Assembly: GCA_016873095.1 (NCBI GenBank)
Contig: VGYC01000051.1
Coordinates: 1-40,463 of the forward strand
Reading direction: 5' to 3'
From: Planctomycetota bacterium
GTDB lineage: Bacteria > Planctomycetota > Planctomycetia > Gemmatales > Gemmataceae
Length of the DNA: 40,463 nt
This document shows, one piece after another, positions 1,380 through 40,463 of the stretch; within the stretch, counting starts at the first letter, position 1; the number at the start of each line of letters is the position of its first letter. The translations under genes and the position numbers were made by a program. The notes beneath the pieces were generated by a model. The model did no database searches. It saw nothing but the letters and a program-made list of their open reading frames with translations, and was not told the DNA's origin.

Positions 1380-1392
1380 AGCCTGAAGCGGC

Positions 1393-3429: not shown

Positions 3430-3495
3430 AGCAATTAACCCCCTAGTTCCGGCCATTCTGCTCGATAATCGTAGCGTCAAGGATCCAGGTCCCCC

Positions 3496-4290: not shown

Positions 4291-4338
4291 GCTTTGAGAC
4301 TTGTACCTTCAACTTGACGGGATTAATTGACCCCGGGT

Positions 4339-5115: not shown

Positions 5116-5151
5116 CGGCGTCGTCTGGTAGTGCCGGCCCCTGCTGTTCGA

Positions 5152-6153: not shown

Positions 6154-6274
6154 TTCACGCGCTCCTCGGAAGTTGGCGGCTACCTTGAGCCACCTGCGAA
6201 AACCACGATCCTCTGACTGGAGAACCTGCCGAACGATCAGTATTCCCGCCGGATTAACGGTGCTGGAACGAAAA

Positions 6275-6302
6275 TTGCCCGATCGCTGTGGTCAAATATA
6301 CC
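6275..6302 (+). promoter_or_regulatory. Candidate sigma70-type promoter for the GTG-start crotonase
   Basis: TTGCCC (6275-6280), a 16-bp spacer and TATACC (6297-6302) lie in the 225-bp region between the divergent LLM and crotonase genes. Read on the other strand, the same stretch gives TTGACC just upstream of the LLM gene, so opposed promoters may overlap here. The match is only fair and the 5' leader would be about 70 nt. Confidence 0.3.
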
Positions 6303-6378
6303 GCAAATAGGGGTTCTGCTAATGTAGAAGAGCGTCCGCGTCTGAGAGGCGACATTTATCATTAGTGATCCCATTCGA

Positions 6379-17468: not shown

Positions 17469-17499
17469 GACGTCAGGATAATCCACCGGGGTACGGAGA

Positions 17500-19214: not shown

Positions 19215-19240
19215 TCAGGTTTCACCGGCGGCAGCCCCGT

Positions 19241-20245: not shown

Positions 20246-22662
20246 TGTCCCGCTCCCGCGATCCGTGTGCGCCGCTCCAGCGCCATATCGCTCTGCATGA
20301 CAGCTGCCCGTAGCGGCAGCGGGCGTTCATAGAGGGTCGTGCGCTGAACTGCCGGGCGGCCGATGCGGCGCGCGAGACTCCTAATCGCTGCTGCTCCGAA
20401 TTCCTGCCCGTGGACACCGCCGGCGGCCCGAGTGATGGATTCGTTCATGAGAGTGCCGCCAATGTCATTTGCACCGGCTTGGAGGCATAACGCCGCGCCG
20501 TCCGGCCCCATCTTCACCCAGGATGTCTGGATATTGGCAATGAGCGGGTGCAGTGCAAGTCGCGCCACCGCGTGCATGAGCACAGCCTCGCGCAGGGTCG
20601 GGCCCGAGCGCGCACGACCCTTGCGCCAGAGCGGCGCTTCCACGTGCACGAATGGCAGCGGCACGAACTCGGTGAAACCGCCGGTTTCGGCCTGCAGCCC
20701 GCGAATCCGCAGCAGGTGCCTGGCCCAATGCGCTGGTTGATCGACATGCCCGAACATGATGGTGGCAGTCGATCTGAGACCCATGGCATGCGCCGTTCGC
20801 ATCACCTCGAGCCACTCGCTGGTGCTCAACTTGTCTGGGCAAAGGATTGCGCGCACCTCGTCATCGAGGATCTCGGCAGCGGTGCCGGGCAGGGTCGAGA
20901 GGCCTGCCTGCCGGAGGCGGCGCAGGTAATCCGCGAGAGTCAGACCGAGAGTCCGGGCGCCGTGCAGGATCTCCAGCGGCGAGAAAGCATGGACATGCAT
21001 CTGGGGCGCTGCTTCTCTCACCGCAGCAACGATGCCGAGATAGGTGTCGCCGGTAAATCTCGGGTGAATGCCACCCTGCAGGCAAACTTCCGTGGCGCCT
21101 ACCTGCGCGGCCTCAACGGTGCGTCGGGCAATCTCTTCGAGGTCGAGGTCATAAGCCGGGCCACGCAGGCTGCGCGCACCGTAGCCCTTCGAGAATGCGC
21201 AGAAGCCGCAATGATAGGTGCAGATATTCGTGTAATTGATGTTGCGATTGACGACGTAGGTGATGCTGTCACCCACGACCGCCGCTCGCAGACTGTCGGC
21301 CGCGTCTAGGACTGCCCGAAAGTCGCTGCCGTCGGCAGCGAACAGCGTGGTGATCCCGGCTTCCGTCAGTTGCTCCCCGGCCTGTGCCGCCGCGAGCAGC
21401 GGCGCAATCGCCTGCGAAGCGGTTACTGGCGTGCGCTGCGACGGGAGCCGCCCCGTAACCGACGGGGGCAGCGCAGTCGCGGTCCCGGCATGCCAGGCAT
21501 CCGGGCGTGCGAGGCCCCGGCTGTCGGTCAGATGCAGGATGCTGGGCACGAGCGCGGCATCGACCCAGCGCGCCGGCGTACGGGCATGACCCGGGCCAAT
21601 GGCCAGGCGCTCGACGAGTTGCCGGCCGACCGCTGCGGTCTCCTGTTCAAGGTCCACGAGCTGCGGCCAGGGCGCCTCCGGATTGACGTGGTCGGGCGTC
21701 ACCGGGGATACGCCACCCCAATCATTGATGCCCGCCCGGATCAGGGGTTCGAGCTCACCCGAGCGCAGGTTAGGTGGAGCCTGCACCGACAGGCTCTTGC
21801 CGAACAGGAGCCGTGTGACCGCGATCGTCCAGAGCTGCTCCTTGAGCTCTGGCTCCGGCGCATTCTCCATCTTCGTACCGGGCTTGGCCCGGAAGTTCTG
21901 GATGATTATTTCCTGCAAATGACCGAATTCGTCGTGCAGGTCCCGCAGGCACAGCAGCGACTCGATCCGCTCCTTGCGTGTCTCGCCGATTCCGATCAAC
22001 AGCCCGCTCGTGAATGGAATGGCAAGTTCGCCGGCCAGTCGCATGGTTTCGAGCCGGCGTGCCGGCCATTTGTCCGGTGAGCCGAAGTGGGGCCCGCCTC
22101 GCTGCGACAGCCGCTCGGAAGCCGTTTCGAGCATGAGACCCATCGATGCCGACACGGGCCGAAGCCGCTGGAGCGCCATGCGGTCCATGACTCCGGGGTT
22201 GAGGTGCGGCAGCAGTCCGGTCTCACGCAGCACCAGACCTGCCATCTGCTCGAGGTAATCGAGTGTCGTCGTCAGGCCGCGCTCCTCGAGCGCGCGCCGG
22301 GCGATCAGGTAGCGCAGCTCCGGCTGGTCGCCCAGCGTGAACAACGCTTCCTTGCAGCCGGCAGCCTGGCCTGCGCGCGCGATGTCCAGCACGGCCTCCG
22401 GCGACAGGTAGGGACTCGCGAGCAGGCGCGGCGCCTTGGCGAAAGTGCAGTAATGGCAAACGTCGCGGCACAACTGCGTCAGGGGGATGAAGACCTTGCG
22501 CGAATAGGTAACCACCCTGTCGAAGCCTGCCAGGGTAAGCGCCTCGGCTGCCTGCATGAGCGGCTCGAGCGGCGCTTCAATGAGGTTGAACGCCGCCGTC
22601 GAATCCAGCACGCGGCCGCAGGCCGCGTTCTCGATTACCCGCAACGTGTCTGAGTCAGGCAT
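20239..22662 (-). CDS. fbiC: FO synthase (FbiC, fused CofG-CofH radical SAM enzyme)
   Basis: An 807-residue bifunctional radical SAM enzyme that builds the deazaflavin FO from tyrosine and 5-amino-6-ribitylaminouracil. Two complete CX3CX2C clusters are visible: Cys65/69/72 (CRDVCHYC, CofG half) and Cys481/485/488 (CTYHCGFC, CofH half). A low-complexity linker near 380-420 joins the halves. Length is close to actinobacterial FbiC (about 850). Many archaea and cyanobacteria have separate CofG and CofH, so the fusion places this system with the bacterial FbiC lineage. It overlaps cofC by 28 bp and fgd by 7 bp. Confidence 0.97.
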   Translation of the reverse strand: MPDSDTLRVIENAACGRVLDSTAAFNLIEAPLEPLMQAAEALTLAGFDRVVTYSRKVFIPLTQLCRDVCHYCTFAKAPRLLASPYLSPEAVLDIARAGQAAGCKEALFTLGDQPELRYLIARRALEERGLTTTLDYLEQMAGLVLRETGLLPHLNPGVMDRMALQRLRPVSASMGLMLETASERLSQRGGPHFGSPDKWPARRLETMRLAGELAIPFTSGLLIGIGETRKERIESLLCLRDLHDEFGHLQEIIIQNFRAKPGTKMENAPEPELKEQLWTIAVTRLLFGKSLSVQAPPNLRSGELEPLIRAGINDWGGVSPVTPDHVNPEAPWPQLVDLEQETAAVGRQLVERLAIGPGHARTPARWVDAALVPSILHLTDSRGLARPDAWHAGTATALPPSVTGRLPSQRTPVTASQAIAPLLAAAQAGEQLTEAGITTLFAADGSDFRAVLDAADSLRAAVVGDSITYVVNRNINYTNICTYHCGFCAFSKGYGARSLRGPAYDLDLEEIARRTVEAAQVGATEVCLQGGIHPRFTGDTYLGIVAAVREAAPQMHVHAFSPLEILHGARTLGLTLADYLRRLRQAGLSTLPGTAAEILDDEVRAILCPDKLSTSEWLEVMRTAHAMGLRSTATIMFGHVDQPAHWARHLLRIRGLQAETGGFTEFVPLPFVHVEAPLWRKGRARSGPTLREAVLMHAVARLALHPLIANIQTSWVKMGPDGAALCLQAGANDIGGTLMNESITRAAGGVHGQEFGAAAIRSLARRIGRPAVQRTTLYERPLPLRAAVMQSDMALERRTRIAGAGHC

Positions 22663-23312
22663 GGGCCTCCGTCGGCAGCCAGCGGCAGTAACGCATAGGT
22701 CGGGTCCACGCGCACTCGCAGGCGACTCAGGTCCTCGGCCATGTCGAGGTCAAATTCCAGGCCTGGCGCCCGCACAAGTTCCGGCTTCAGACCAAGACGC
22801 ATCGCCTCCTTGAAATGACGCAGGCGGCTACCGGGGCCGAAATGGAATCGAAATGCCGCCGGGGCTGCCAGGTAAAGGCCATTGGTGCTCATTCCCTCGA
22901 TATCGGTCGCCAGCGCAAAGCCCGTACGCCGGCCGCTCTCGACGAGTGCGTCGATATCTGCGGCGGTGATCATCGGCAGATCGGCCGGGAGCACGACGAG
23001 TTCACCCATTCCCCGGTCGACGAGCGTCTGCCGCGCCGTGTCCAGCACCGCGTTGAGGCCATGACCTGAGTCCTCGAGCACGGGAATGTCGGACGGCACC
23101 GTATCGCGCTCGGGGCTGACGACGACGATACGGTCGATCGTCCGCGCAGCCCTGAGTGCCGTGAGCACCCGTTCCAGCATGAGTCGCACGAGCGACAGGC
23201 GCGCCTCGGCCGCGAGCCTGCCCGCGAGACGGCCCTTGCACTCCGCCCGCCGCTTGACGGCAACCAGAGCCCAGCAGGTGTCGGGTGGCGGGTCGGTCAA
23301 GTGGAAGTGCAT
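22635..23312 (-). CDS. cofC: Phospho-acid guanylyltransferase CofC/FbiD, F420 biosynthesis
   Basis: A 225-residue nucleotidyltransferase that activates a three-carbon phospho-acid with GTP for transfer by CofD. VAVKRRAECKGRLAG near the N-terminus, LEDSGHGLNAVLD, VVLPADLPMITAADI and STNGLYLAAPAAFRFHFGPGS are typical CofC motifs. It is the first gene of the operon and overlaps fbiC by 28 bp. The family accepts 2-phospho-L-lactate (archaea), phosphoenolpyruvate (mycobacteria) or 3-phosphoglycerate (Mycetohabitans); the specificity here cannot be read by eye. The ATG at 23312 was preferred over one 30 nt upstream because it gives the usual short N-terminus. Confidence 0.94.
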   Translation of the reverse strand: MHFHLTDPPPDTCWALVAVKRRAECKGRLAGRLAAEARLSLVRLMLERVLTALRAARTIDRIVVVSPERDTVPSDIPVLEDSGHGLNAVLDTARQTLVDRGMGELVVLPADLPMITAADIDALVESGRRTGFALATDIEGMSTNGLYLAAPAAFRFHFGPGSRLRHFKEAMRLGLKPELVRAPGLEFDLDMAEDLSRLRVRVDPTYALLPLAADGGPCLTQTRCG

Positions 23313-23416
23313 CTGGCTTGCCTCACGCGAGCGTCGTAGCAACTATTATGATCACATCGCCGCTCGGCGGTCTCCGGTTTGGCGAATTCACCGGACCTGC
23401 CGCAAGACCGGACGAT
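23313..23416 (-). promoter_or_regulatory. Upstream region of the F420 operon, with two dyads
   Basis: This 104-bp gap precedes cofC and must hold the operon promoter if transcription starts here. TCCGGT-N11-ACCGGA (23373-23395) is a perfect 6-bp dyad and CGCCG-CT-CGGCG (23358-23369) a tight hairpin. On the minus strand CATAAT (23350-23345) could be a -10 box; no strong -35 partner is visible. Both dyads lie upstream of that hexamer, as an activator or repressor site might. Confidence 0.35.
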
Positions 23417-25420: not shown

Positions 25421-25690
25421 ATGAAGATCCTCACCTGCCCGATCAACGGCCCGCGGCCCATCACCGAATTCGCATATGGCGGGGAACTGCGCGAGATGCC
25501 GGATCCGGCGCGTGCGACGGATGCCGAGTGGACCGACTACGTATTCAATCGCAACAGTGTGCCAAGCACGAAATGCGAGTGGTGGTGCCATACGTCGAGC
25601 GGCGTGTGGTTCATCGCCGTGCGGGATACGGCATCAGACGTCACATTGCGTACCTTCCTGTATGCGAGATCGGCCGGGGGCGCCCCGTGA
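25421..25690 (+). CDS. mgdB: N-methylglutamate dehydrogenase delta subunit (SoxD-like)
   Basis: An 89-residue zinc-binding small subunit of the heterotetrameric oxidase. ITEFAYGG, WTDYVFNRN and CEWWCH are the family pattern. SoxD zinc ligands are two Cys near the N-terminus plus a His and Cys in the WCH region; here Cys6 is present but the second position of CPxC is Asn9 (CPING). The start follows the mgdA stop by 2 bp and the stop overlaps mgdC by 4 bp. Confidence 0.88.
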   Translation: MKILTCPINGPRPITEFAYGGELREMPDPARATDAEWTDYVFNRNSVPSTKCEWWCHTSSGVWFIAVRDTASDVTLRTFLYARSAGGAP

Positions 25691-28614
25691 ATCGTCTCGC
25701 AGCTCGGCCGGGTGAATGGATCGACCGCTCGCAACGGATTGCATTCTCATTCGAGGGCCACGCACACCACGGTTACCAGGGCGACACCCTGACGAGCGCG
25801 CTGATCGCGTCAGGCGTACGCACGCTCGGACGCTCGTTCAAGTATCACCGTCCTCGCGGCGCGTTGTCCGTCGCGAATCACGACGCGAATGCCATTGTGC
25901 AGATTCGACGCGCCGGTCGCAGCATCCCGAACCAGCGCGCCGATCTGCTGCCGATCGCAGAGGGACTCGAGGCATTCGCCGTCAACACGCAAGGCGGCCT
26001 CGCCAGGGATCGCCGCCGGCATCTCGACCGCCTGTCGGCGTACTTGCCGGTCGGCTTCTACTACAAGGCCTTCCACAGCAAGCGGCTGTTCCCTTACTGG
26101 GAACGGCTGTTCCGCAATCTGACGGGGCTTGGCGCCGTCGATCTCGACGCGCCGCGGGTCGTTACACCGAAGCGTCACGAATTCGCCGACGTCGCAGTGA
26201 TCGGGGCCGGGCCTGCGGGACTCGCCGCGGCCGTGGCGGCAGCGGACGCGGGCGCCGAAGTTGTGCTCGTGGATGAGAATCCAAGGATTGGCGGCAGCGC
26301 GACCTACGCGCTCGCTTCCGAAACAGCGAGCGCGCAGCGGGTTGCCGATCTTATCGGCTCCGTGACCTCGCACCCGCGCATCCGTCGATTCGTGACGACC
26401 GTCGCGACAGGTCTCTATGCCGACCACCTGCTCGCCCTCGTCACGCAGGACCGCCTGCTCAAGCTGCGTGCCGGCTCGGTCATCATCGCCCAAGGGGCCT
26501 TTGAGCAACCGGCGGTGTTTCGCAACAATGACCTGCCCGGCGTCATGCTGGCATCCGGCGCGCAGCGACTCATGCATCGCTACGCGGTGGCGCCGGCTTC
26601 GCGCGTCGGCATTCTAGGCGCAAATGTCCATGCATACCGCGCGGCGCTCGACGCACGCGCGGCCGGCATTGAGGTTTCGGTCCTGCTCGACCTGCGCGAG
26701 AGACCTGGACCGCAATCGCTGCCCCTTGCCGAGACGCTACGGGCCCAGGGCGTGCGGGTGCTGAACGGCACCGGCGTGTATGCGGCGCATCGCGGTGGTA
26801 GCGGAGACATTGACAGCATTGAACTCGCCGAGTGGCGCGAGGGTGCGTGGCGGCGCTCGTCGGCCAACGCGATCGCGGTTGACGGACTCTGGATGAGCGT
26901 CGGCTTCGCGCCGGCCGACGCGCTGCTGAGGCAGGCGGGTGCGGTGGTGCAATATGACGCGCGCGCGTGTCAGTTCGTGCCCGGCGTGCTGCCGCCCGGT
27001 CTGTTCGCCTGCGGCAAGGTCAACGGCGTGTTCGATCTCGATGCGCGAGTTGCTGACGGCCAGCGCGCTGGCACCGCGGCGGCTCTTCACTGTGGATTCG
27101 AATCGAGATCCTGTTTTGGTGTCGGCGCGCCCGATCAGGAGACGGCAACGCACCCGTATCCGATCGTCGAGCATCCGGAGGGCATGAACTTCGTCGATTT
27201 CGATGAAGACCTGCAGCTCAAGGATTTCGCCAATGCCGTCCAGGAAGGATTCGACAATGCCGAACTGCTGAAGCGCTTTACGACGGTGGGCATGGGCCTG
27301 AGCCAGGGCAAGCACTCCAACGCCAACGCGCTGCGCGTGCTCGCGCAGCTGCGCGGCATGCCGCTCGATTCAATTGCCCAGACGACCGCCCGGCCGATGT
27401 TTCAGTCCGTCCCTATGTCGCATCTCGCGGGTCGCGGATTTTCGCCCGAGCGGCGTACGCCGGTGGATGCCGATCACGAGTCGCTCGGTGCCGTCTGGAT
27501 GCCGGCCGGCAACTGGCGACGCCCCGCGTACTACCGGCGCGACCGGCTGACGCGCGAGGAATCAATCGCGGCGGAAGTGCGCGCGCTCCGTGGGGGCATC
27601 GGCCTGATCGACGTCGGCACGCTCGGCAAGATCGAGGCGCACGGCTCGCAAGCGGGCGAGTTCCTCGATCGCGTTTACACGGGGCATTTCGGTTCATTGA
27701 AAGTCGGCATGACGCGCTACGGCCTGATGCTCGATGAAAGCGGCGTCATTGTCGACGACGGCGTCATCGCGCGGCTCGCGCCGGAAGTGTTCTATTTCAC
27801 GACCACGACGGGCAATTCGGCCGCACTATTCCGCGAGCTGGTACGGCTGGCGACGTGGTGGCGAATGCCGGTCAGCCTGGTCAATCTTACCGGGCACTTT
27901 GCCGCCTTCAACCTCGCCGGCCCGCGTTCCCGGGAGGCGCTGGCCAGGCTCACGTCGCTCGCACTCGACGATGCGGCGTTTCCCTATCTGGGGGTGCGCG
28001 AAGCAAAGATCGCCAACGTCCCGGCTCGGTTGCTGCGGGTCGGCTTCGTGGGCGAGCTCGGCTACGAAATTCACGTGCCTTCCGGCTCAGCTGCTGAGGT
28101 GTGGAACGCGATACGCACTGCCGGGGCGGATTTCGGCATCACCTTGATTGGCGTCGAGGCACAGCGCATGTTGCGTCTCGAGAAAGCGCACATCATCGTT
28201 GGCCAGGACACGGATGGCCTGACCAACCCGTTCGAGATCGGCGCCGACTGGGCCGTGAAGATGGACAAGCCCTTCTTTATCGGCCAGCGAAGCCTTGCCA
28301 TCATCGCGAAGAATGCGCCACGTCAGCAGCTCGTGGGATTCGCACTCGAGCCCGGTCGCTACGCCGGAATCCGCGAATGCCACCTCGTCATCCGTGACGG
28401 CGACATCGCGGGCCGCGTGACCAGCGTCGGACAGTCTCCGACACTTGGACGCACCATCGGCCTTGCGCTGGTGACGCCGGCGGCCGCCAGGGATGCGACC
28501 CTCAGCATTCGTATCGACGGTGGCGCACAAGTCGCGGCGCCAATCGTTCCGTTGCCATTTTATGACCCTGCGGGTGCCCGGCAGCGGATCGACAGCGGTG
28601 GAGCTCGCTCATGA
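25687..28614 (+). CDS. mgdC: N-methylglutamate dehydrogenase alpha subunit (SoxA-like)
   Basis: A 975-residue subunit of the sarcosine-oxidase-like complex. It has an N-terminal 2Fe-2S-ferredoxin-like fold remnant (FSFEGHAHHGYQGDTLTSAL, 20-39), a pyridine-nucleotide/FAD-type Rossmann domain with GAGPAGLA at 173-180, and a C-terminal GcvT-like folate-binding domain (about 600-970, with GEVGYEIHVPS-type sequence near 795). The GcvT domain hands the released C1 unit to tetrahydrofolate. The start is the GTG at 25687, overlapping the mgdB stop, since upstream in-frame codons lie inside mgdB. The stop overlaps mgdD by 4 bp. Confidence 0.9.
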   Translation: MNRLAARPGEWIDRSQRIAFSFEGHAHHGYQGDTLTSALIASGVRTLGRSFKYHRPRGALSVANHDANAIVQIRRAGRSIPNQRADLLPIAEGLEAFAVNTQGGLARDRRRHLDRLSAYLPVGFYYKAFHSKRLFPYWERLFRNLTGLGAVDLDAPRVVTPKRHEFADVAVIGAGPAGLAAAVAAADAGAEVVLVDENPRIGGSATYALASETASAQRVADLIGSVTSHPRIRRFVTTVATGLYADHLLALVTQDRLLKLRAGSVIIAQGAFEQPAVFRNNDLPGVMLASGAQRLMHRYAVAPASRVGILGANVHAYRAALDARAAGIEVSVLLDLRERPGPQSLPLAETLRAQGVRVLNGTGVYAAHRGGSGDIDSIELAEWREGAWRRSSANAIAVDGLWMSVGFAPADALLRQAGAVVQYDARACQFVPGVLPPGLFACGKVNGVFDLDARVADGQRAGTAAALHCGFESRSCFGVGAPDQETATHPYPIVEHPEGMNFVDFDEDLQLKDFANAVQEGFDNAELLKRFTTVGMGLSQGKHSNANALRVLAQLRGMPLDSIAQTTARPMFQSVPMSHLAGRGFSPERRTPVDADHESLGAVWMPAGNWRRPAYYRRDRLTREESIAAEVRALRGGIGLIDVGTLGKIEAHGSQAGEFLDRVYTGHFGSLKVGMTRYGLMLDESGVIVDDGVIARLAPEVFYFTTTTGNSAALFRELVRLATWWRMPVSLVNLTGHFAAFNLAGPRSREALARLTSLALDDAAFPYLGVREAKIANVPARLLRVGFVGELGYEIHVPSGSAAEVWNAIRTAGADFGITLIGVEAQRMLRLEKAHIIVGQDTDGLTNPFEIGADWAVKMDKPFFIGQRSLAIIAKNAPRQQLVGFALEPGRYAGIRECHLVIRDGDIAGRVTSVGQSPTLGRTIGLALVTPAAARDATLSIRIDGGAQVAAPIVPLPFYDPAGARQRIDSGGARS

Positions 28615-29174
28615 AATCGCCGGTTCGACCGGTTTCCTCCATGCTGCGGGACGTGACCGCACGTCCGCGATTTGGTTGCAAGGGGCCGCTGGCGGAAGCC
28701 TGGCTGCACGAACTCGGTCTTTTCGTGCCGCAGGCGTCGAATTCCTGGAGTTGCGAACGCGGGGATATCCTGCTCGCGCGACTGGCAACCTCGGAATTCC
28801 TGGTGGAATCGCTTGCGCCAGAGCATGCGCAAATCAGGAATATCGCGGCATCGCTGCTCGATCCGGCGCAGCGGCGACCCGGCCTCGTGCCAGTCCCACG
28901 GCAGGATCTCGTGCTAGAGCTTGCGGGCGCAGGGGCTGATGGTCTGCTCCTTGAGACCTGCAACGTGAATTTCGCGCCGCTCGCGCTCAATGCCGGGGCG
29001 TGCGCCGGTCCGGTCGTCCTGACACAGATGGTCGGCGTCGGGCTGACCGTGATACCGCGCCGTGCCGACGGCGAAGTGTCATATTTGATCTGGTGCGATC
29101 CGAGCTTTGGACACTACCTGCGCTCGACGCTCGCCGGAATCGCCGATGACATGATTCGAAGTGCCAGCAGTTGA
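28611..29174 (+). CDS. mgdD: N-methylglutamate dehydrogenase gamma subunit (SoxG-like)
   Basis: A 187-residue protein in the SoxG position, with LLETCNVNFAPL and the C-terminal SFGHYLRSTLAG pattern typical of the gamma subunit. SoxG is a poorly conserved GcvT-like subunit, so the assignment rests partly on operon position. It overlaps mgdC by 4 bp (ATGA) and ends 12 bp before gmaS. Confidence 0.83.
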   Translation: MKSPVRPVSSMLRDVTARPRFGCKGPLAEAWLHELGLFVPQASNSWSCERGDILLARLATSEFLVESLAPEHAQIRNIAASLLDPAQRRPGLVPVPRQDLVLELAGAGADGLLLETCNVNFAPLALNAGACAGPVVLTQMVGVGLTVIPRRADGEVSYLIWCDPSFGHYLRSTLAGIADDMIRSASS

Positions 29175-29186
29175 GGGGAGACACGA

Positions 29187-30521
29187 ATGACACCGCAACA
29201 GGCCAGTAAATGGTTTGCCAGCAACAAGATTCGCTATGTGCTGGCGCAGTTTGTGGACATCCATGGCGCGGCCAAGGCGAAAGCGGTCCCGGTGGAGCAC
29301 TACGACATGGTGCTCGGCGACGGAGCCGGATTCGCCGGCTTCGCGGTCTGGGGTTTCGGCATGGGGCCGCACGGTCCCGACTACATGGGCGTCGGCGATC
29401 CACAATCGCTTGTCGCCCTGCCATGGATGCCGGGCTTCGCGCGCGTCGCCTGTGATGGTCATGTGCGCGGCAAGCCCTATCCCTACTGCTCGAGGGTGGC
29501 GCTCAAGAACCAGCTGAAGCGACTCGAATCGAAGGGCCTGACGATGTATGCCGGCATTGAACCCGAGTTCATGCTGCTCAAGCGCACCGCGAACGGCGGC
29601 CTTGCCCCGTTCGATGATACCGACACGCTTGACAAGCCATGCTACGACTACAAGGGCCTGGCGCGCGCCAGCGCGATCCTCGACGAGATCACGACGAGCC
29701 TCAGGGCAGTCGGCATCGACGTGTACCAGATCGATCACGAGGACGGCAACGGCCAGTTCGAGGTGAATTTCACCTATGCCGACGTGCTGAAGACGGCGGA
29801 CAATTTCATGTTCTTCAAGATGGCGGCGTCGGAGATCGCGCGCAAGCACGGCGTAACCGCGACATTCATGCCGAAGCCCTTTTCGAACCGCGCCGGAACG
29901 GGAGCGCACTTTCACATTTCGATGGGCAACAAGAAGACGCCGAATCTGTTCTACGCCAAGAACGACAAGCGCGGACTTTCGCTTTCGACAATGGGCTATC
30001 AGTTTCTTGCGGGCATCCTCACCCACGCACGCGCGCTCACTGCCATCTGTGCGCCGACGATCAACTCCTACAAGCGGCTGGTTGTCGGCCGTTCGCTGTC
30101 GGGTGCGACCTGGGCGCCAGCCTACATTGCATATGGCGACAACAATCGAACGGCTTGTGTACGGATTCCGGGCGGACGTATCGAAATGCGCCTGCCGGAT
30201 GGTGCGGCCAATCCCTATCTTGCCAGCGCCGCGATTCTCGCCGCGGGCCTCGACGGCATCGAGCGACAGCTTGACCCGGGCGAGCCGCTGAACGAGAACC
30301 TGTACGAGTTCTCGCAGAAGGAGCTTAAGCGGCGGAAGATCGGATTGCTGCCGCAAAACCTGGCCGAAGCGATCGATGCACTCGAAGCCGACGACGTGGT
30401 AATGGCGGGCATCGGCACGGATCTTGCGAAGGAATTCGCCAGTATTAAGCGCATGGAGTGGGTCGAGTACTGCCGTCACGTGAGCGACTGGGAAACGTCG
30501 CGCTACTTGGAAATGTTCTAG
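29187..30521 (+). CDS. gmaS: Gamma-glutamylmethylamide synthetase (type III glutamine-synthetase-like)
   Basis: A 444-residue ATP-dependent ligase that joins methylamine to glutamate, forming gamma-glutamylmethylamide, the entry step of the N-methylglutamate pathway. [50 protein letters not shown] and [26 protein letters not shown] are GmaS/GlnT-family motifs. Length matches characterised GmaS (about 440). GAGGGGAGA gives a good ribosome-binding site. GlnT-type glutamine synthetases are close relatives, but mgs and mgd genes on both sides settle the role. Confidence 0.92.
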
Positions 30522-30530
30522 GAGGCACAC

Positions 30531-31424
30531 GTGTGTGGGATCGTTGGATTGCTCGTCAAGAAGCCTGTGCTGCGCGAACGCCTGGGTGAAATGATGGTGC
30601 CGATGCTCATCGGGATGACGGAGCGCGGTCCCGATTCCTCTGGAATGGCCGTATTCACCGAGCCAGTCACCGGCAAGCGCCGCAAGCTGAGTCTTTACTG
30701 CGCGGACGCTTCCTTTGACTGGAAGCATGCCGAGGGCGTGCTGTCCGAGAGATGCGACGATGTATCGCTGGCGGTCGGGGCGAATCACGCTGTACTGACC
30801 ACGACGTCGGAGCCCGTCGCCCTGCGCGCCTGGCTGCGCACGGAGTTTCCGGACATGCGCGTGTTGAGCGTTGGCCGCTCGATCGACCTTTACAAGGACG
30901 TGGGTCTGCCCGTCGAAGTGGCGGAGCGTTATCACTTCGCTACATTGCGTGGCACGCACCTCGTCGGGCACACGCGCATGGCCACGGAAAGCGCGGTGAC
31001 CCCCGAAAACGCCCATCCTTACACGGCGGGGGAGGACTGGTGCCTCGTGCACAACGGCTCGCTTGCCAACCCCGGCAGCATCCAGCGCAAGCTCGAGAAG
31101 CTTGGCGTGCACTTCGAGAGCGATTGCGACACGGAATGCGCGTGCCGCTACATCCATTGGCGGCTCGACGAAGGCGACACGCTCGAGCAGGCTCTCGAGA
31201 AGGCATTCGAGGATTTCGACGGCTTCTTTACCTTCCTCATGGGCACGCATGACAAGCTGGCACTGGTACGCGATCCATTCGCGTGCAAGCCCGCGGTGGT
31301 CGCGGAAACCGACGACTACGTGGCGATCGCGTCCGAATTTCGCTCGCTGGCACACCTGCCCGACGTGCGCCATGCCAGGGTCTTTGAGCCGAAGCCGGTG
31401 CAGGTGTACTCATGGTCCGTGTAG
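30531..31424 (+). CDS. mgsA: N-methylglutamate synthase subunit A (class II glutamine amidotransferase)
   Basis: A 297-residue Ntn-type amidotransferase domain resembling the N-terminal part of glutamate synthase. It begins MCGIVG, so Cys2 becomes the N-terminal nucleophile after Met removal. GHTRMATESAVTPENAHPY and LVHNGSLANPGSI are family motifs. AGGAGG lies 5 nt before the GTG start. Acting with MgsB and MgsC it releases methylamine from gamma-glutamylmethylamide and channels it toward N-methylglutamate. Confidence 0.92.
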   Translation: MCGIVGLLVKKPVLRERLGEMMVPMLIGMTERGPDSSGMAVFTEPVTGKRRKLSLYCADASFDWKHAEGVLSERCDDVSLAVGANHAVLTTTSEPVALRAWLRTEFPDMRVLSVGRSIDLYKDVGLPVEVAERYHFATLRGTHLVGHTRMATESAVTPENAHPYTAGEDWCLVHNGSLANPGSIQRKLEKLGVHFESDCDTECACRYIHWRLDEGDTLEQALEKAFEDFDGFFTFLMGTHDKLALVRDPFACKPAVVAETDDYVAIASEFRSLAHLPDVRHARVFEPKPVQVYSWSV

Positions 31425-32122
31425 TGCGTACAGGCCAGTCCGCGCCGGCGCAATTCGACCTCTCGAAGCAGTCGGTGAGTGAACTCAACAAGTTTGTTCA
31501 CGGCCACCTCGAGGGCGTCACGGAGGTGCGCGTCGAGAACCCCGACGGTGCGCACAGCATCGCGGTCGCGGTCGATGCGCCGCTGCGCATCGAAATTGGC
31601 GGCAACGTGGGTTATTTCTGCGCCGGGCTCAACAAGCAGGCAACTGTCATGATCGACGGCAACGCGGGCCCGGGAGTCGCCGAGAACATGATGTCGGGCC
31701 GGGTCGAGGTCGCAGGATTCGCAAGCGGGGGCGCGGGTGCGTCAGCCCACGGCGGGTTGCTTGTGATTCATGGCGACGCCGGCCTCAGGTGCGGCATTTC
31801 GCTCAAGGGCGCGGACATCGTGGTGGGCGGCGACGTGGGCAGTTTCTCTGCATTCATGGCGCAGGCCGGGCGCATTGTCATTTGTGGCAACGCGGCTGAA
31901 GGACTGGGTGACTCGCTCTATGAAGCCGTCGTTTATGTCCGCGGCGGGATCCGCTCGCTCGGCGCCGATGCGGAAGTCCAGCCGATGGGCGCCGAGGACA
32001 CGGCCGCGGTGACCGCCTTGCTGGCCGCCGCGGGCATCGGTCACCCGGCCCGGGAGTTCAAGCGCGTGGGTTCGGCGCGCAAGCTCTATCACTGGAATGT
32101 CGACGCCAACCAGGAATACTGA
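31412..32122 (+). CDS. mgsB: N-methylglutamate synthase subunit B (GltS gamma-type beta-helix)
   Basis: A 236-residue protein rich in regularly spaced GG/GN motifs (IEIGGNVGYF, IDGNAGPGV, IVVGGDVGSF, IVICGNAAEG). This is the right-handed beta-helix (GXGXG) domain equal to the C-terminal part of glutamate synthase alpha subunit. It bridges the amidotransferase and FMN subunits and overlaps the end of mgsA by 13 bp, so they are translated together. Confidence 0.9.
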   Translation: MVRVVRTGQSAPAQFDLSKQSVSELNKFVHGHLEGVTEVRVENPDGAHSIAVAVDAPLRIEIGGNVGYFCAGLNKQATVMIDGNAGPGVAENMMSGRVEVAGFASGGAGASAHGGLLVIHGDAGLRCGISLKGADIVVGGDVGSFSAFMAQAGRIVICGNAAEGLGDSLYEAVVYVRGGIRSLGADAEVQPMGAEDTAAVTALLAAAGIGHPAREFKRVGSARKLYHWNVDANQEY

Positions 32123-32143
32123 GGTTTGAAGACGGGAGAAGCT

Positions 32144-33517
32144 ATGGCCACTCAACCCCTGCTGCAAATGCCGGCCACTCCGGAGCGCCTGCAACGCGAG
32201 GAAAGCGCATTGTATGACCGGCAGGTCCTAGACTATATCGAGCGCGCCGCGGCCACCGGGCTGTATGAAATCCGCGGACTCGGCGCCAAGCGCCGCCTGC
32301 CGCACTTCGATGACCTCGTGTTTCTTGGGGCGTCGCTATCGCGCTATCCGCTCGAGGGCTACCGCGAGAAGTGCACGACTCGGACGATCCTCGGCACGCG
32401 TTTCGCCAGGAAGCCAATCGAGCTGGACATTCCCATCACGATCGCGGGCATGAGCTTTGGCTCGCTCTCCGCGAACGTGAAAGAAGCGCTCGGCCGCGCC
32501 GCCACCTCGGTTGGAACCTCGACGACGACCGGCGATGGCGGCATGACCCTGGAAGAGCGCGTTTCGTCAAAAACGCTGGTCTACCAGTGCCTGCCATCGC
32601 GCTATGGCTTCAACCCGGATGACCTTCGCAGGGCAGATGCGATCGAGGTCGTGATTGGCCAGGGCGCGAAGCCCGGCGGCGGCGGCATGCTGCTCGGGCA
32701 GAAGGTCAGCGCGCGGGTGGCGGCGATGCGCACGCTTCCGGAGGGGATTGATCAGCGCTCGGCCTGCCGCCATCCGGACTGGACAGGTCCCGACGATCTT
32801 GCGATCAAGATCAAGGAGCTGCGCGAGGCGACGGACTGGGAGAAGCCCATCTACATCAAGATCGGCGCAACTCGCGTGTTCAACGACGTCAAGCTTTGCG
32901 TGCATGCTGGAGCCGACGTGATTGTGGTTGACGGCATGCAGGGTGGCACTGCCGCAACGCAGCTCGCGTTCATCGAACATGTCGGCATTCCGACGCTGGC
33001 CGCCGTCCGGCAGGCGGTCGAGGCGCTCGAGGAACTGAATATGAAGGACAAGGTGCAGCTCATCGTCTCGGGCGGCATTCGCACGGGAGCGGACGTTGCA
33101 AAGGCCCTGGCGCTTGGCGCGGATGCCGTCGCGATCGGACAGGGAATCCTGATGGCTCTCGGCTGCAACTCGGACAGCTACGTGCAGGGTGGAAAACACT
33201 ACTCGGCAGAGGCCGACTATCGCCGGCTGATGACCGCCCCCGGGTTCTGCCACCATTGCCACACGGGCTTCTGCCCGGTCGGCGTAACCACCCAGGATCC
33301 GGTGCTCGAGCAGCGCCTGGAACCCGAGGTCGGTGCGAAGCGTGTCAGGAACTACCTCAAGACCCTGAACCTGGAACTCACCACACTCGCCCGCGCCTGC
33401 GGCAAGCAAAATGTACATCACCTCGAGCGCGAAGATCTGGTGGCGCTCACCGTCGAAGCGGCGGCGATGGCGAGGCTGCCGCTCGCGGGAACCCGGTGGG
33501 TGCCGGGGCAACCCTGA
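32144..33517 (+). CDS. mgsC: N-methylglutamate synthase subunit C (FMN, glutamate-synthase-like)
   Basis: A 457-residue FMN-binding TIM-barrel protein like the central glutamate synthase domain. ITIAGMSFGSLS, GDGGM, GQGAKPGGGGMLLGQKVS, DGMQGGTAATQ and SGGIRTGADVAKALALGADAV are family motifs. CHHCHTGFCPVG near 368-380 supplies cysteines for a 3Fe-4S cluster. With MgsAB it condenses released methylamine and 2-oxoglutarate, and reduces the product to N-methylglutamate. The ATG at 32144 follows GGGAGA; a TTG at 32126 is a less likely start. Last gene of the operon, converging on the sulfotransferase gene. Confidence 0.92.
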   Translation: MATQPLLQMPATPERLQREESALYDRQVLDYIERAAATGLYEIRGLGAKRRLPHFDDLVFLGASLSRYPLEGYREKCTTRTILGTRFARKPIELDIPITIAGMSFGSLSANVKEALGRAATSVGTSTTTGDGGMTLEERVSSKTLVYQCLPSRYGFNPDDLRRADAIEVVIGQGAKPGGGGMLLGQKVSARVAAMRTLPEGIDQRSACRHPDWTGPDDLAIKIKELREATDWEKPIYIKIGATRVFNDVKLCVHAGADVIVVDGMQGGTAATQLAFIEHVGIPTLAAVRQAVEALEELNMKDKVQLIVSGGIRTGADVAKALALGADAVAIGQGILMALGCNSDSYVQGGKHYSAEADYRRLMTAPGFCHHCHTGFCPVGVTTQDPVLEQRLEPEVGAKRVRNYLKTLNLELTTLARACGKQNVHHLEREDLVALTVEAAAMARLPLAGTRWVPGQP

Positions 33518-33537
33518 ATTTCCGACCCGAGGACCTG

Positions 33538-35106
33538 CTACGGAATGCCCAGCGCCTCTTGCAGCGGGCGCAGGTGTTTTTCGTAGCACTTCCAACGGCC
33601 CACTGCATCCCGGTAAACCGGTTTTCTGACCTCCGCGTCACTGGGTGTGCTGACCGACCGACCTGTCCGATGGAATGCCAGGCAATCGGGATGGAATTCC
33701 AGCCCACAGTGAGCTAATAGCAGATTCACCTGGTTCTCGGTGTCACGGACCAGCGTCTCATAGCGGATGTGGTGAATGTGGCCTGGAAACAAGTCGTCCC
33801 AATACGCCATGAGGTCCTGGTACAAGCGATAGTACGAGCCCAGTGCCGACAGGTTCGTCGCGTAGCCATGCGCCGCAGTGAAAAAATGCTGATAAATGGA
33901 CAGGCAATTGTCCAGCGGATCCCGTTCGCAAAGCACGATGCTGGCATTCGGCATCATGGCCGCATACAGGCCGATGCGCAGGAAATTATGCGGTAGTTTG
34001 TCGGTGATACGTCGCGCCTGCCCGGCGCTTGCCCTGAGCTTGCCGACATACTTTCGGCAGGATTCCGCCAGTTCGCCGCGGTCAACCCGGCCGATATCCA
34101 CCGGAAATGGCTTGCCAGTCCGTTGCTCGACGTCCTCGACCAAAATGCGGGAATACCCTGCTTCGCCACCGCCATGCACCGCGGGATGACTCGCAAGGAT
34201 CTGCTCAACCAGGCTGGTACCGGACCGTGGCATGCCGAGGATGAAGATCGGCGTGTTGTCCGTGATTGCGTGGCGTTTGAAATTTTCGACGAATTCCCGG
34301 TTGATTCCCTGTTTGTGCCGGTCGAAGAATGCAGCTTGCGCCTCCAGCGACCAGGTCTGGGCGTGGTTCTGCAGCTCGTTGGCTTCAAGAAAATACTTGA
34401 AGGCCCGGTCGTATTGCCTGCGTTGATCAAATGTTCGTCCCAGGGCATAGCCAACCGGGATTCGGTCCTCAGCCGGGACAGTCCGCGTACGCCAGGCTGT
34501 CTCCATCTTGCTCACTTGTTCCGCGTCATCCGCCAGCCGCCCGAGCAGCGCCAGGCGATAACAGGCTTCGCCATGCAGCGGCGATTGCAAGAGCGCCCTT
34601 GCGTAGCATGCGGCTGCGTTCGCAAGGTCTCCGCTCGCCTGATGCAGGGATCCACGGGTGACGAGCGCATTGGCATTGGCGGGGTCCAGGGCAAGGGACC
34701 GGTCCACCGCCCTCGCCGCTTCGTCAGGCTTGCCATCGTCTTGCAGCAGCGAGCCAAGCGCCGCATGCGCGCGGGCGTCTGCGGGTGCGAGCGAAACAGC
34801 CCGCTCCAAGCTCGCCAGTGCATCGGCCAGCAAGCCTTGCTGATGCTGGATGACGCCCAGATTGAACACGGCAACAAAATCGTCGGGGCGCGTCGCAACG
34901 GCTTTCTTCAGTAACGGTATTGCCCGGCTGGAGTTGCCCTCATCGTGATAGAGCATCCCGAGCATGTAATTGGCGGCATGGTGATCGCTGTCCCGCGCGA
35001 GGATGTTGCGCAGCTCGTTTGCAGCCAGCAGGGTCTTGCCGGCCCGCCGAAATTTCTCGGCGCGCCGGATCTCCTCCAAATATGACGGGACGCCCCGCGC
35101 CATCAT
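33538..35106 (-). CDS. TPR-repeat sulfotransferase-family protein
   Basis: A 522-residue two-part protein: tetratricopeptide repeats at about 10-240 (AANYMLGMLYHDEGNSSRAI, AVFNLGVIQHQQG, AHAALGSLLQDDG), then a sulfotransferase domain from about 285. The 5'-PAPS-binding loop IFILGMPRSGTSLVEQIL is at 287-304, and SIVLCERDPLDNCLSIY is the 3'-phosphate-binding region. Such fusions occur in many Pseudomonadota; substrates are mostly unknown, possibly proteins held by the TPRs. No signal peptide is visible. The ATG pair at 35106/35103 overlaps the stop of the upstream serine-hydrolase remnant (ATGA), so it was probably the second gene of a pair whose first gene is now broken. Expression may depend on a new promoter. 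Confidence 0.88.
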   Translation of the reverse strand: MMARGVPSYLEEIRRAEKFRRAGKTLLAANELRNILARDSDHHAANYMLGMLYHDEGNSSRAIPLLKKAVATRPDDFVAVFNLGVIQHQQGLLADALASLERAVSLAPADARAHAALGSLLQDDGKPDEAARAVDRSLALDPANANALVTRGSLHQASGDLANAAACYARALLQSPLHGEACYRLALLGRLADDAEQVSKMETAWRTRTVPAEDRIPVGYALGRTFDQRRQYDRAFKYFLEANELQNHAQTWSLEAQAAFFDRHKQGINREFVENFKRHAITDNTPIFILGMPRSGTSLVEQILASHPAVHGGGEAGYSRILVEDVEQRTGKPFPVDIGRVDRGELAESCRKYVGKLRASAGQARRITDKLPHNFLRIGLYAAMMPNASIVLCERDPLDNCLSIYQHFFTAAHGYATNLSALGSYYRLYQDLMAYWDDLFPGHIHHIRYETLVRDTENQVNLLLAHCGLEFHPDCLAFHRTGRSVSTPSDAEVRKPVYRDAVGRWKCYEKHLRPLQEALGIP

Positions 35107-35662
35107 TCTCCCGGGGCGAAAGGCCGGATCCGGTTGGCGGCCTTTATCATTTCCAGCGACCGTGTGCCGCCATTCCCGATGCGAAATCCGATCATGCGGT
35201 TGGGCATGAGGCAGACCAGCATCCCTCCCCATCCATGCATCTCGGCTATGGAAGTGGAAAATCCGGATTCCGTCGTATATGGCGTATGCCACAGGCTCAT
35301 GTGATACGAATTCTTGCCAAACCCGTTTGATTCCCCGGTGGGTAGGCCACGTTTGTCGGTCTGGTACAGGGCCTCGGCAAGCTTGGTCGGGCTGAGGATC
35401 TGCTTGCCTTTGTGCCGGCCGCCATTTTGCAGCAGCATCGATACCTTGGCGATGTCGTCAACCGTCACGAACAAGCCCCATCCCAGGAATGGAATACCCT
35501 GCGAGCCATCCGGCTCCACCGTGAACTTCGAAGACATGTGATGAATGCCGATCGGCTTGTACACTTCCTCGGTCATCATCTGCCACAGATCGGCATTCTC
35601 CCCCTCCCTGCTCGTCAACAGGCTGTCCAATGCCGCGGCTACCGTAAAGGTGTCGCGGTCAC
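35103..35662 (-). pseudogene. Serine hydrolase (beta-lactamase/S12-like), 5'-truncated remnant
   Basis: The recognisable part is about 185 residues: DTFTVAAALDSLL, EEVYKPIGIHHM, FLGWGLFVTVDDIAKVSMLLQNGG, and EMHGWGGMLV, which matches the third (H/K-x-G) motif of class C-type serine hydrolases. The first half, with the catalytic SxxK and YxN motifs, is gone; upstream of about 35,660 the frame stays open but encodes antisense of a TonB-receptor remnant. The 3' end is intact and overlaps the TPR-sulfotransferase start. The remaining piece cannot be an active hydrolase. Confidence 0.82.
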
Positions 35663-36042
35663 AACTCGAGGCGGTGATCGTCACGGCAACACGCAGGGAA
35701 TCCCGCATTGTCGACGTGCCTAACGTCATCTCCGCAATCTCCGGCAATGATATCGAACGCCATGGCGTGCGGGATCCTTCCGACCTCGTGCGTGTCGTAC
35801 CCGGCATCGCCTACCTGGAACAAGGGCCGCGCGTCGCAAATAACAACAACTACATCATTCTTCGCGGCCTGAATGCGGCCAGCCACAGCAGCCAACTGAG
35901 TTACGACCTCAGCGCCGTCTGGAACCGGCCGCTGAGTGAATCGTCATTACTGCGTTTCGCGGCGGGCAGGCGTGATTTGGGCGGATTCATCGACTACACT
36001 GACCGGGTGCAGCCCGACTCCAAACGGCATGAAATTCCGTGA
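35663..36042 (+). pseudogene. TonB-dependent receptor, truncated and internally deleted remnant
   Basis: LEAVIVTATRRES through LVRVVPGIAYLEQG and NNYIILRGLN is the N-terminal plug of a TonB-dependent outer-membrane receptor. Then, from about 35,878, the frame jumps to a barrel segment (YDLSAVWNRPLSESSLLRFAAGRRDLGGFIDY) with no room for the rest of the plug, and stops soon after. There is no signal peptide or start: upstream sequence is the opposite-strand hydrolase remnant. At least two deletions are needed to explain it. Full receptors are 700-900 residues; about 125 remain. Confidence 0.85.
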
Positions 36043-36115
36043 CTCGACCACTCGCCAGCGTACCATGAGGTTCCTGAACCCTTCCATTATTGAACACTCT
36101 TGGAGCACATCAGTC

Positions 36116-36568
36116 ATGCGCATCCACGCGATCTTCGCTGTCCTCATCGCGACAATCTACGCAGAAACCGCATCAGCCGATCTTGAACCATACAAGGACT
36201 ACGACATCAGCGATGCCGTGTGGGCAATCACGACCATCCGCGTTGCAGACAACATGGACGACATCTATTTGGAGGCGATAAAGAGCGCATGGGCTGAGGG
36301 CAACGAAGTGGCGAAAGCGCTCGGACACATTGAGGACTATTTGATCCTCCGCAGCGATCTGCCCCAGAGTGGCGAGTTCAATTTGATGTTGATCGTAAAA
36401 TACAAAACTACTTCGGACCGCGCTCCCAGCAAAGACCGGCACGACGCCGTGATGACGATGTGGGGTCAGAAAAGAACCGAGGCATGGGCGAAGTTCCAAC
36501 ACGAAAACGTTTCTGGTATGCGCGAAATTACTGGTCAGTACCTGATGCGTGAGATCAGTTTGCGCTAG
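36116..36568 (+). CDS. Small exported protein of unknown function
   Basis: A 150-residue protein with a clear signal peptide (MRIHAIFAVLIATIYAETASA, cleavage after about 21). The mature part, with AVWAITTIRVADNMDDIYLEAIKSAW, EDYLILRSDLPQSGEFNLML and MREITGQYLMREI, suggests a compact alpha/beta fold, perhaps ferredoxin-like. I do not recognise a named function. The ATG at 36116 was chosen over upstream codons because GGAG lies 10 nt before it and the signal peptide starts there. The remnant of a TonB receptor precedes it; whether it was part of the same operon is unknown. Confidence 0.7.
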   Translation: MRIHAIFAVLIATIYAETASADLEPYKDYDISDAVWAITTIRVADNMDDIYLEAIKSAWAEGNEVAKALGHIEDYLILRSDLPQSGEFNLMLIVKYKTTSDRAPSKDRHDAVMTMWGQKRTEAWAKFQHENVSGMREITGQYLMREISLR

Positions 36569-37035
36569 TGATAACGCTGCAGAAATCAGCAGTCAGCGTG
36601 AGGTGAGCATTCGGGCCAAGTACGTATGCCCGCATCGACATGCCGTAACGACCGCTCCTAGTGATCTGCCGGCATTCTTCGGACCAGCTGCCACTAGACA
36701 ATGGCTCATCGGGATCGCTGAACCCGGGTGAGCGCGGCTGCAAGCCGATCCGCGTGTGGCGTGACCTGAGAGCGGCATTATGGATACTGAATGCTGGCGG
36801 TCAGCGGCTTTGGCCTTCGCCTCCCAGGCGGACCGCAAGCCCGCGCACCGCCGCTTCCGGCATTGGAGCCCACACGCAGTGATGTGGGTGGCGCTGGCCG
36901 ATTTGGCGGATAGTCTGCGCGAGCAGGCGGCGCCGGGTTTCCCGGGGTACCTCTGCGATGCGGCATCCGGGTTCGCCATTGGCGGCTGTGACAAGTCGGC
37001 GCCCGCTGCCCTCACCGCGCCGGTCAGCGCTTAGC
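36569..37035. other. Intergenic stretch with no supported gene
   Basis: Between the small exported protein and the CocE promoter. Short open frames on both strands show no family-like features, signal peptides or ribosome-binding sites. No RNA gene, repeat array or insertion sequence ends are seen. It may be decayed DNA linked to the rearrangement just upstream. Confidence 0.5.
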
Positions 37036-37063
37036 TTGACTCTTGCACGTGAAGGAATACTAT
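37036..37063 (+). promoter_or_regulatory. Sigma70-like promoter for the CocE-type hydrolase
   Basis: TTGACT (37036-37041), a 16-bp spacer and TACTAT (37058-37063) give a good match to the consensus. Transcription would begin near 37,070, leaving a leader of about 58 nt before the ATG at 37128. No terminator precedes it, but a 467-bp gap does. The following epimerase-like gene may share it. Confidence 0.55.
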
Positions 37064-37127
37064 CCGACGGTCAGCTTACGTGAGAAGAATCCTGATTAGC
37101 ATGCTACTTCATCGAGTGGGGAGACGT

Positions 37128-38987
37128 ATGAGGCGCATCGCATTAATCATCGCATGCATGAACGTCTATCTCGGTGCCGCGATGGCAGAAGAAGTGAAAG
37201 CACAACCAGCATACGAGGTGCGAGTTGAGAAGAGCGTCATGGTCAAGATGCGCGATGGCATCAGCTTGTCCATGGATCTGCATTCGCCTGCGGGGGCTTC
37301 TGGCAGACTTCCGACCATCCTGCTGAGGACTCCGTATGGCAAGAGTCGGTCCTCGACCGAAGCGGATTTGATGAGAAAGTCGCTGGTTGGCAGAGGGTAT
37401 GTCGTGGCGATCGTGGACATGCGCGGCCGCTTTGAGTCGGAGGGGGGCCCCTACAAGCCAGGGTTTGGTGACCGCAATGACGCCTACGATACGGTCACAT
37501 GGATCGCGAGTCAGCCATGGTCCAATGGTCGAGTGGCCACGATGGGTTGTTCCTACTTGGGAGATACCCAGGTCGTGCTCGCGACCACACGGCATCCAAA
37601 TCACGTTGCAGCAGTTCCAATGGCATCGACAACTGGCTACCTGGGCTATGGACGCCCATGGATCGCTTATGACGGTGGGGTCTTTGAGCTTGCGCAGACC
37701 GCTGGTTGGTTTTCTGGCAGCGGAAGCGAAATCGTCTATGGACCGCCGCCTTGGGTAAACCGCCAGGAGTGGTTCCGCTCTGACGCCGCCAAACTGTTTC
37801 GTCAAACGGAGCAACGCGACCAAATCGAGTATTTCTCCAGAATCTGGGAGTTGCCCATCATCGACATCCTGAATAATTCTGGAGCACCGCCGACGGATTA
37901 CGAAAACTTCGTGTCCAACAATCCGGATGGCGAGTATTTCCAGAAGCTCGACTGGGCCAAGAAATCGGACCGCTTTGACACGCCGATGCTATTCGTAGAC
38001 TCCTGGTACGACTACGGCCCCGCCGAGACGCTGGATCTGTGGAATCTGGCGCAAGAAAACTCTGTCACCAAGAAATCGCGTGATAACCAGTTTGTGATCA
38101 TTGCGCCGACAACGCACTGCGAGTATTCCACCGCCGATGGCAGCGAGCATTGGGTTGTGGGCGAACGTGATATGGGGAAAGCCGGGCTCAATTTCGTGGA
38201 TATCCAGAATCGCTGGTACGACCACTGGCTGCTAGATGTCGACAATGGCGTGACCGACATGCCGAAGGTGCAGTACTTCCTGATGGGCAAGAACGAATGG
38301 CGAAGCTCGGATGTGTGGCCATTGGCCAACACGAATTACAGGAAGTTCTATCTGCAAAGCGCCGGCCGGGCCAACAGCCGGTATGGCGATGGATCACTTT
38401 CGCTGCAGATGCCTGGCGAGCAGCCGGCCGACCGTTTTGTCTATGACCCGGCGACACCGGTGCCATCGCTCGGCGGCCAGACCTGCTGTACCGGTCTCGA
38501 TACGGGCGCAGGTGCCTACGATCAGTCAAAGATTGAAATGCGTCACGATGTACTTGTGTACACATCTGATGTGCTGGAAAAGGGACTAGAGGTCACGGGA
38601 CCCTTGCAGGTCGTCCTCTATGTTTCTTCCTCTGCCAAAGATACAGACTTCATGGCCAAGCTCGTGGACGTTTATCCAGACGGCCGCGCATTCAACGTGC
38701 AGGAAGGCGCGCTCAGGATGCGATATCGGGAGGCATTCTCCAAGCAATTGCGCATGAAGCAAGGCGAGGTCTACGAGGCCCGTATTGACTTGCATGCTAC
38801 GGCCAATTATTTCGGCCCCGGACATCGTGTGCGGTTGGAAGTGTCGAGCTCCAGCTTTCCGCGATTCGACCGAAACCTCAACACCGGGGGAAACAACTAC
38901 GACGAATCGCAATGGGTCGTTGCAGAGAACATGGTCCACCACTCCGCTCAGTATCCTTCCCATTTGTTGCTGCCTGTGATCGATTGA
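37128..38987 (+). CDS. Secreted CocE/NonD-family hydrolase (X-Pro dipeptidyl-peptidase S15-like)
   Basis: A 619-residue alpha/beta hydrolase with a signal peptide (MRRIALIIACMNVYLGAAMA, cleavage near 20). Nucleophile Ser142 lies in MGCSYLGD (GxSYxG is the CocE/S15 form), the Asp in VDSWYDYGPAETL, and the His in APTTHCEYS. The C-terminal jelly-roll domain starts around 430. Family members cleave cocaine-like esters, glutaryl-cephalosporins or X-Pro peptides; the natural substrate here is unknown. The start at 37128 follows GGGGAGA and gives a clean signal peptide; an earlier in-frame ATG-type start at 37080 would bury it. Confidence 0.92.
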   Translation: MRRIALIIACMNVYLGAAMAEEVKAQPAYEVRVEKSVMVKMRDGISLSMDLHSPAGASGRLPTILLRTPYGKSRSSTEADLMRKSLVGRGYVVAIVDMRGRFESEGGPYKPGFGDRNDAYDTVTWIASQPWSNGRVATMGCSYLGDTQVVLATTRHPNHVAAVPMASTTGYLGYGRPWIAYDGGVFELAQTAGWFSGSGSEIVYGPPPWVNRQEWFRSDAAKLFRQTEQRDQIEYFSRIWELPIIDILNNSGAPPTDYENFVSNNPDGEYFQKLDWAKKSDRFDTPMLFVDSWYDYGPAETLDLWNLAQENSVTKKSRDNQFVIIAPTTHCEYSTADGSEHWVVGERDMGKAGLNFVDIQNRWYDHWLLDVDNGVTDMPKVQYFLMGKNEWRSSDVWPLANTNYRKFYLQSAGRANSRYGDGSLSLQMPGEQPADRFVYDPATPVPSLGGQTCCTGLDTGAGAYDQSKIEMRHDVLVYTSDVLEKGLEVTGPLQVVLYVSSSAKDTDFMAKLVDVYPDGRAFNVQEGALRMRYREAFSKQLRMKQGEVYEARIDLHATANYFGPGHRVRLEVSSSSFPRFDRNLNTGGNNYDESQWVVAENMVHHSAQYPSHLLLPVID

Positions 38988-40189: not shown

Positions 40190-40463
40190 TCACCTGCCCC
40201 GCGATGTGCCACTGGTTGACCGGGGATCGATCCAGGACTGAAAGGTTCTGGTGCATCTGAAGTCATCGGGTCTGCCAGGCAGGCTCGTCCCGGTGGGTGC
40301 CAGGGCAGCCTTGACTTTCATCAGGTTTTTCGCTGAGAAGAGGCGCAATGCGACGCTCGTGCACACCCAGCTCGTATTTCGGTCGCCGAGATAGTCGTTG
40401 TGGCTGGACCAGGGGTAGTCGCGGGCATCCCTGACAAGTCCTGCACGCACCGGATTCAGGTGA
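40190..40463 (-). pseudogene. RayT/IS200-like (Y1) transposase, C-terminal part, probably decayed and cut by window edge
   Basis: From the right edge the minus strand reads HLNPVRAGLVRDARDYPWSSHNDYLGD, the well-known C-terminal segment of REP-associated tyrosine transposases (RayT). After about 40 residues the usual ending is replaced by unrelated Arg/Ser/Pro-rich sequence, suggesting a frameshift or truncation. The catalytic HUH and Tyr lie outside the window. RayT proteins mobilise REP palindromes; no REP array is seen here. Converges with the epimerase gene, 2 bp apart. Confidence 0.68.

Follow-up and report, generated by a model that had tools for sequence, protein, structure and literature searches.

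A serine hydrolase remnant and a TonB-dependent receptor remnant that meet head to head in the window are, with a probability of about 90%, the two sides of the scar of a single deletion inside a gene pair that already stood head to head. The window is the whole stretch of DNA that was analysed (40,463 nucleotides), contig C51, positions 1-40463, of an 8.36-Mb draft genome that comprises 548 contigs and is 95.5% complete. A sequence-only reading had described an abrupt switch between the two genes near 35,660, and we placed the changeover at 35664/35665, inside the interval of 35600-35720 given there. DNA similarity to the hydrolases of two relatives, L008 and L009, reached 35664, and similarity to the L009 receptor ran from 35665; over 12-bp steps from 35653 to 35665, hydrolase-side matches fell from 10 to 4 and receptor-side matches rose from 1 to 9. 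The insertion of a mobile element at the joint was rejected, as zero bases separate the two limits of similarity. That neither remnant has its start, as that reading had stated, was borne out: the hydrolase piece begins at about residue 435 of 620 in L009 and the receptor piece at residue 61 of 815.

Features of the locus in the window and of its counterpart in L009 (own coordinates of each)
Feature	Position	Strand	Description
Window: TPR-sulfotransferase	33538-35106	-	Intact, 522 aa; start overlaps hydrolase stop
Window: serine hydrolase, C-terminal remnant	35103-35664	-	Residues 435-620 of 620-aa L009 ORF; lacks SxxK and Tyr of YCD, retains HGWGG
Window: probable deletion joint	35664-35665	none	Lacks 1678 bp relative to L009; no clear microhomology
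Window: TonB-dependent receptor, piece 1	35665-35877	+	L009 residues 61-131, about first half of plug; 59 of 71 residues identical
Window: second joint, inside receptor	35877-35889	+	In-frame loss of 240 bp (80 codons)
Window: receptor, piece 2	35887-36042	+	L009 residue 215 to about 270; stop at 36040-36042
Window: next ORF, 150 aa	36116-36568	+	Right-limit neighbour; as far as seen not part of receptor
L009: sulfotransferase 2	343-1947	-	
L009: TonB receptor	2051-4498	-	815 aa; Plug and barrel domains
L009: hydrolase	4696-6558	+	620 aa; Beta-lactamase match just under cut-off
L009: sulfotransferase	to 8120	+	

A contig scan with the hydrolase piece, which detects close relatives only, matched 15 stretches, two of which were relatives: L009 (CALDVW010000048.1, a MAG of an uncultured Xanthomonadales) and L008 (DAOWGA010000007.1, a MAG of Lysobacterales bacterium CSMAG_1979). 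Comparison with a related genome that keeps both genes intact had been proposed as a check, and L009 was found to carry the whole pair as neighbours; the intact pair was seen in this one MAG only. The L009 locus has three genes in common with the window and, read in reverse, gives the same order and orientation of sulfotransferase (-), hydrolase (-) and receptor (+), but with receptor and hydrolase at full length and with a second sulfotransferase adjoining the receptor, where no such gene was seen in the window. Hydrolase tail and sulfotransferase formed one collinear DNA alignment that was 68% identical (L009 5967-7991 against window 35699-33670). In L009 coordinates, the absent sequence consists of 1301 bp of hydrolase ORF, 197 bp of intergenic sequence and 180 bp of receptor, a split that rests on the start codon in the ORF list; if the L009 hydrolase starts as in L008 (position 4774), the protein would have 594 aa and the gap 275 bp, with the total unchanged.

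The loss of the 5' half of the hydrolase that the sequence-only reading described is real, but its extent is larger, with the front ~70% of the gene missing. By tblastn, the remaining piece matched residues 432-618 of the L009 ORF (E 2.4e-100), with the DNA limit at residue 435, and its protein identity was 80-81% to L009 and 81-82% to L008. SVTK (L009 residue 323) lies in the deleted part, in agreement with the proposed removal of the SxxK region, and the tyrosine of YCD (434) is likewise absent, whereas HGWGG (577) is retained; the intact L008 and L009 hydrolases have both SVTK and YCD. We take these three to be catalytic motifs of the beta-lactamase family. The window piece thus lacks the SxxK and YxN-type motifs of a PF00144 serine hydrolase, and neither it nor the minus-strand ORF across the joint had a Pfam match at E <= 0.1. 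The intact L008 and L009 hydrolases scored 24.8 and 26.5 bits against Pfam Beta-lactamase, just below the curated cut-off of 27, and we named the piece a serine hydrolase because its intact relatives carry this near-cut-off match. A name of 3-succinylated cholic acid synthase was rejected (a weak NCBIfam match of 24.2 bits against a cut-off of 800), and no solved structure matched the L009 hydrolase sequence at E <= 0.01.

Damage to the receptor goes beyond the joint and includes a further deletion, this one in frame, and premature termination, both absent from the earlier account. Piece 1 matched Pfam Plug (5.3e-6; 27.3 bits against a cut-off of 23.9) over profile positions 3-56 of 107. In tblastn with the L009 receptor, piece 1 aligned to residues 61-135 (E 8.0e-31, 81% identical) and piece 2 to residues 209-270 (E 5.9e-19, 61% identical); the two overlap at 35869-35889 with an offset of exactly 80 codons, and in L009 the hexamer GCCACC is common to both ends of the lost 240 bp. 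Over 35887-36018, 31 of 44 residues of piece 2 are identical to L009, and similarity fades near 36018-36054. Residues 271-815 of the L009 receptor found nothing better than E 0.8 in the window and nothing at E <= 0.001 in the genome. The window has a Plug fragment only, whereas the L009 protein has both Plug and barrel. The first 60 L009 codons are without a counterpart at the joint, and the receptor N-terminus has thus been removed, with its putative signal peptide, as the sequence-only reading had proposed. The ORF that follows the receptor matched no Pfam or NCBIfam family, and 98 other genomes yielded no relative of it at E <= 1e-8.

These observations suggest an ancestor in which sulfotransferase and hydrolase occupied the minus strand and a plus-strand TonB receptor started a few hundred bp away and ran in the opposite direction. 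One deletion of ~1.7 kb, the size taken from L009, would have eliminated 70% of the hydrolase from its front end, the upstream region that both genes shared and 60 codons at the receptor start. At least two further receptor lesions, the in-frame 240-bp loss and the loss of everything beyond residue ~270, would have left the two pieces. Comparison with L009 revealed no convincing microhomology at 35664/35665, and this joint may have formed by illegitimate end joining; the second perhaps arose by short-repeat slippage. We infer a single event of this size in the lineage of the window, this order of events and this mechanism, and with them a loss of promoter and of function. Judged by what is left of them, hydrolase and receptor are both presumably dead. 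They are ordinary pseudogenes, the product of ordinary gene decay: a relative holds intact homologues, the local copies are without essential parts, and the missing parts do not occur elsewhere in the genome (E <= 0.001; draft, 95.5% complete). Neither gene had a further copy in this genome (G000) at E <= 0.001.

The same search bears on the idea that the true genome holds an intact pair and that the assembler skipped 1.7 kb, which we consider unlikely. The genome is fragmented into its 548 contigs, and a repeat inside the missing part would escape detection; however, the missing hydrolase and receptor parts are not found elsewhere in the assembly, and the further receptor lesions would be unexplained by one assembly slip. 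Both copies of the only direct repeat pair listed for 35000-37200 (24 nt, 71% identity; 35101-35124 and 35853-35876) lie away from the joint; the list for this interval also has four imperfect inverted repeat pairs.

L008 retains an intact hydrolase, and its receptor is gone: 91 C-terminal residues of sulfotransferase 2 (4424-4696, 76% identical to L009) abut the hydrolase, with the changeover at about 4690-4777. A search of the available 2.0 Mb of the L008 genome with the L009 receptor returned four matches that were only 28-40% identical. This arrangement is best explained by a single deletion of ~4 kb covering the receptor and most of sulfotransferase 2; given the sulfotransferase 2 remnant, the receptor was probably lost from the same place. 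Window and L008 are thus alike in having lost the receptor by deletion at apparently the same locus, but L008 spared the hydrolase, and one of its breakpoints falls within sulfotransferase 2 and the other upstream of the hydrolase. Of three such loci seen, the window's and that of L008 have the receptor lost or broken. The differing receptor deletions in these two could reflect repeated selection for loss of the locus, perhaps with a receptor that admits a phage or toxin and, in the window, a sulfotransferase brought under a new upstream region; three copies are too few for inferring selection, and we regard this as improbable. The L008 contig also carries a gene with 77% DNA identity to the window gene at 10079-11707, which looks like a molybdenum-hydroxylase large subunit gene; the L008 counterpart is ~3 kb from the hydrolase, and the window gene ~23 kb away.

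L008 and L009 also bear on the claim that a recombination or deletion fused two unrelated loci, of which the deletion stood and the unrelated loci did not. Within the window alone, the pieces do seem unrelated and truncated, and the L008 hydrolase is not beside a receptor. In L009, however, the two genes are head-to-head neighbours, arranged as in the window and with the same sulfotransferase beside the hydrolase, a point that fails only if L009 is misassembled, and L008 retains a remnant of the very sulfotransferase found past the receptor in L009. A rearrangement that joined unrelated loci is therefore highly improbable.

The sulfotransferase matched Sulfotransfer_3 (1.5e-40) and TPR in Pfam, with the longer ORF from 35292 scanned, and was 52.6% identical to its L009 counterpart over 519 aa. 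The overlap of the hydrolase stop with the sulfotransferase start is common to window and L009, and the two genes therefore probably once formed one operon, transcribed from within the segment now missing. The sulfotransferase, although intact, has probably lost the upstream region that drove it. A consensus scan, to which other promoter types are invisible, found no minus-strand promoter-like site near the joint; two promoter-like sites were listed against 1.0 expected, with the only minus-strand site at 36804-36777.

Both frames do run open across the joint, as had been pointed out: a minus-strand ORF of 234 aa (35103-35807) and a plus-strand ORF of 165 aa (35545-36042) are stop-free there. 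Random stretches of the window were open in a random frame and strand in 48% of cases at 120 bp and 44% at 143 bp, in a control that includes coding frames, so these open frames are unremarkable and do not count as evidence. That the joint made a useful gene, with the 234-aa ORF translated as a coupled leader for the sulfotransferase, is highly improbable: the ORF is open, its stop overlaps the start of an intact sulfotransferase as in L009, but upstream of the joint it consists of antisense receptor sequence, frames open over such lengths are common in the window, the consensus scan gave no minus-strand site close to the joint, and the SxxK and YCD motifs are gone.

The state of the hydrolase piece fits a fairly recent loss: its 186 comparable codons contain no stop or frameshift, and its branch dN/dS (0.118) is like that of the copies in which the gene is intact (L008, 0.188; L009, 0.052), ratios that are rough given the high dS (0.78-1.35). 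The divergence of the piece probably gathered mostly while the gene was whole. Some decay after truncation is possible, which would speak against a very recent loss, since the window piece exceeds the other two copies both in branch dN (0.066; 0.042 in each of the others) and in unique amino-acid changes (17; 10 and 13 in the others).

Searches for a second intact hydrolase/receptor pair in family, order, class, plasmid and viral-contig collections yielded none. The L009 hydrolase had no match at E <= 1e-20 in any other genome searched from the family (94), the order (101) or the class (396 drawn from it; the sets overlap, and in the class search at most three candidates per genome were scored), and the ancestral state was therefore not seen in the window's own lineage. 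The L009 receptor matched none of 397 class genomes at E <= 1e-100, a limit too strict even for the window's own pieces. A DNA search with window 33500-38900 against 58 relatives, scoring five candidates per genome, matched three, each over ~70-75 bp inside the sulfotransferase. Eight stretches of viral contigs matched a search pattern and none encodes a relative. Among plasmids, seven records were found, all under 60% identity; the best, a serine hydrolase of Paracoccus aminophilus plasmid pAMI4 (NC_022049.1), is 34.5% identical over 84% of the L009 hydrolase. It has hydantoinase genes as neighbours and an Stf0 sulfotransferase ~5 kb away; none of the 10 features in the stretch examined is a TonB receptor. 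We found no paper that joins TonB-dependent receptor, sulfotransferase, beta-lactamase and divergent transcription. The removal of inactivated bacterial genes by deletion is described for Salmonella genomes by Kuo and Ochman 2010 (PMC2916853); inactivated genes are deleted in both cases, but the window offers a single locus in a draft genome.

Elsewhere in the window, an F420 cofactor cluster at 16011-23342 encodes CofD, CofE, a fused CofGH, CofC and an F420-dependent glucose-6-phosphate dehydrogenase, each above its NCBIfam cut-off, and has gnd (also above its cut-off) beside it. A cluster at 25528-33517 encodes a type III glutamine synthetase that scored above its cut-off and two proteins that stayed below theirs, one sarcosine-oxidase-alpha-like and one glutamate-synthase-like; the set resembles N-methylglutamate pathway clusters. 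At the contig end, an open frame at 40190-40462 had no Pfam or NCBIfam match; by its motif it looks like a REP-associated transposase. GC content is 56-59% from ~35 kb to the right end, 61-68% from roughly 6 to 35 kb and 58-61% in the left 6 kb.

What appears to be a chimera of unrelated loci is, on the reading of a deletion within a gene pair, the residue of a natural pair, and the two open frames across its joint are a caution against gene calls made from them. The different deletion of the same receptor in a second relative, L008, is a small lead that the locus may be easily dispensable.
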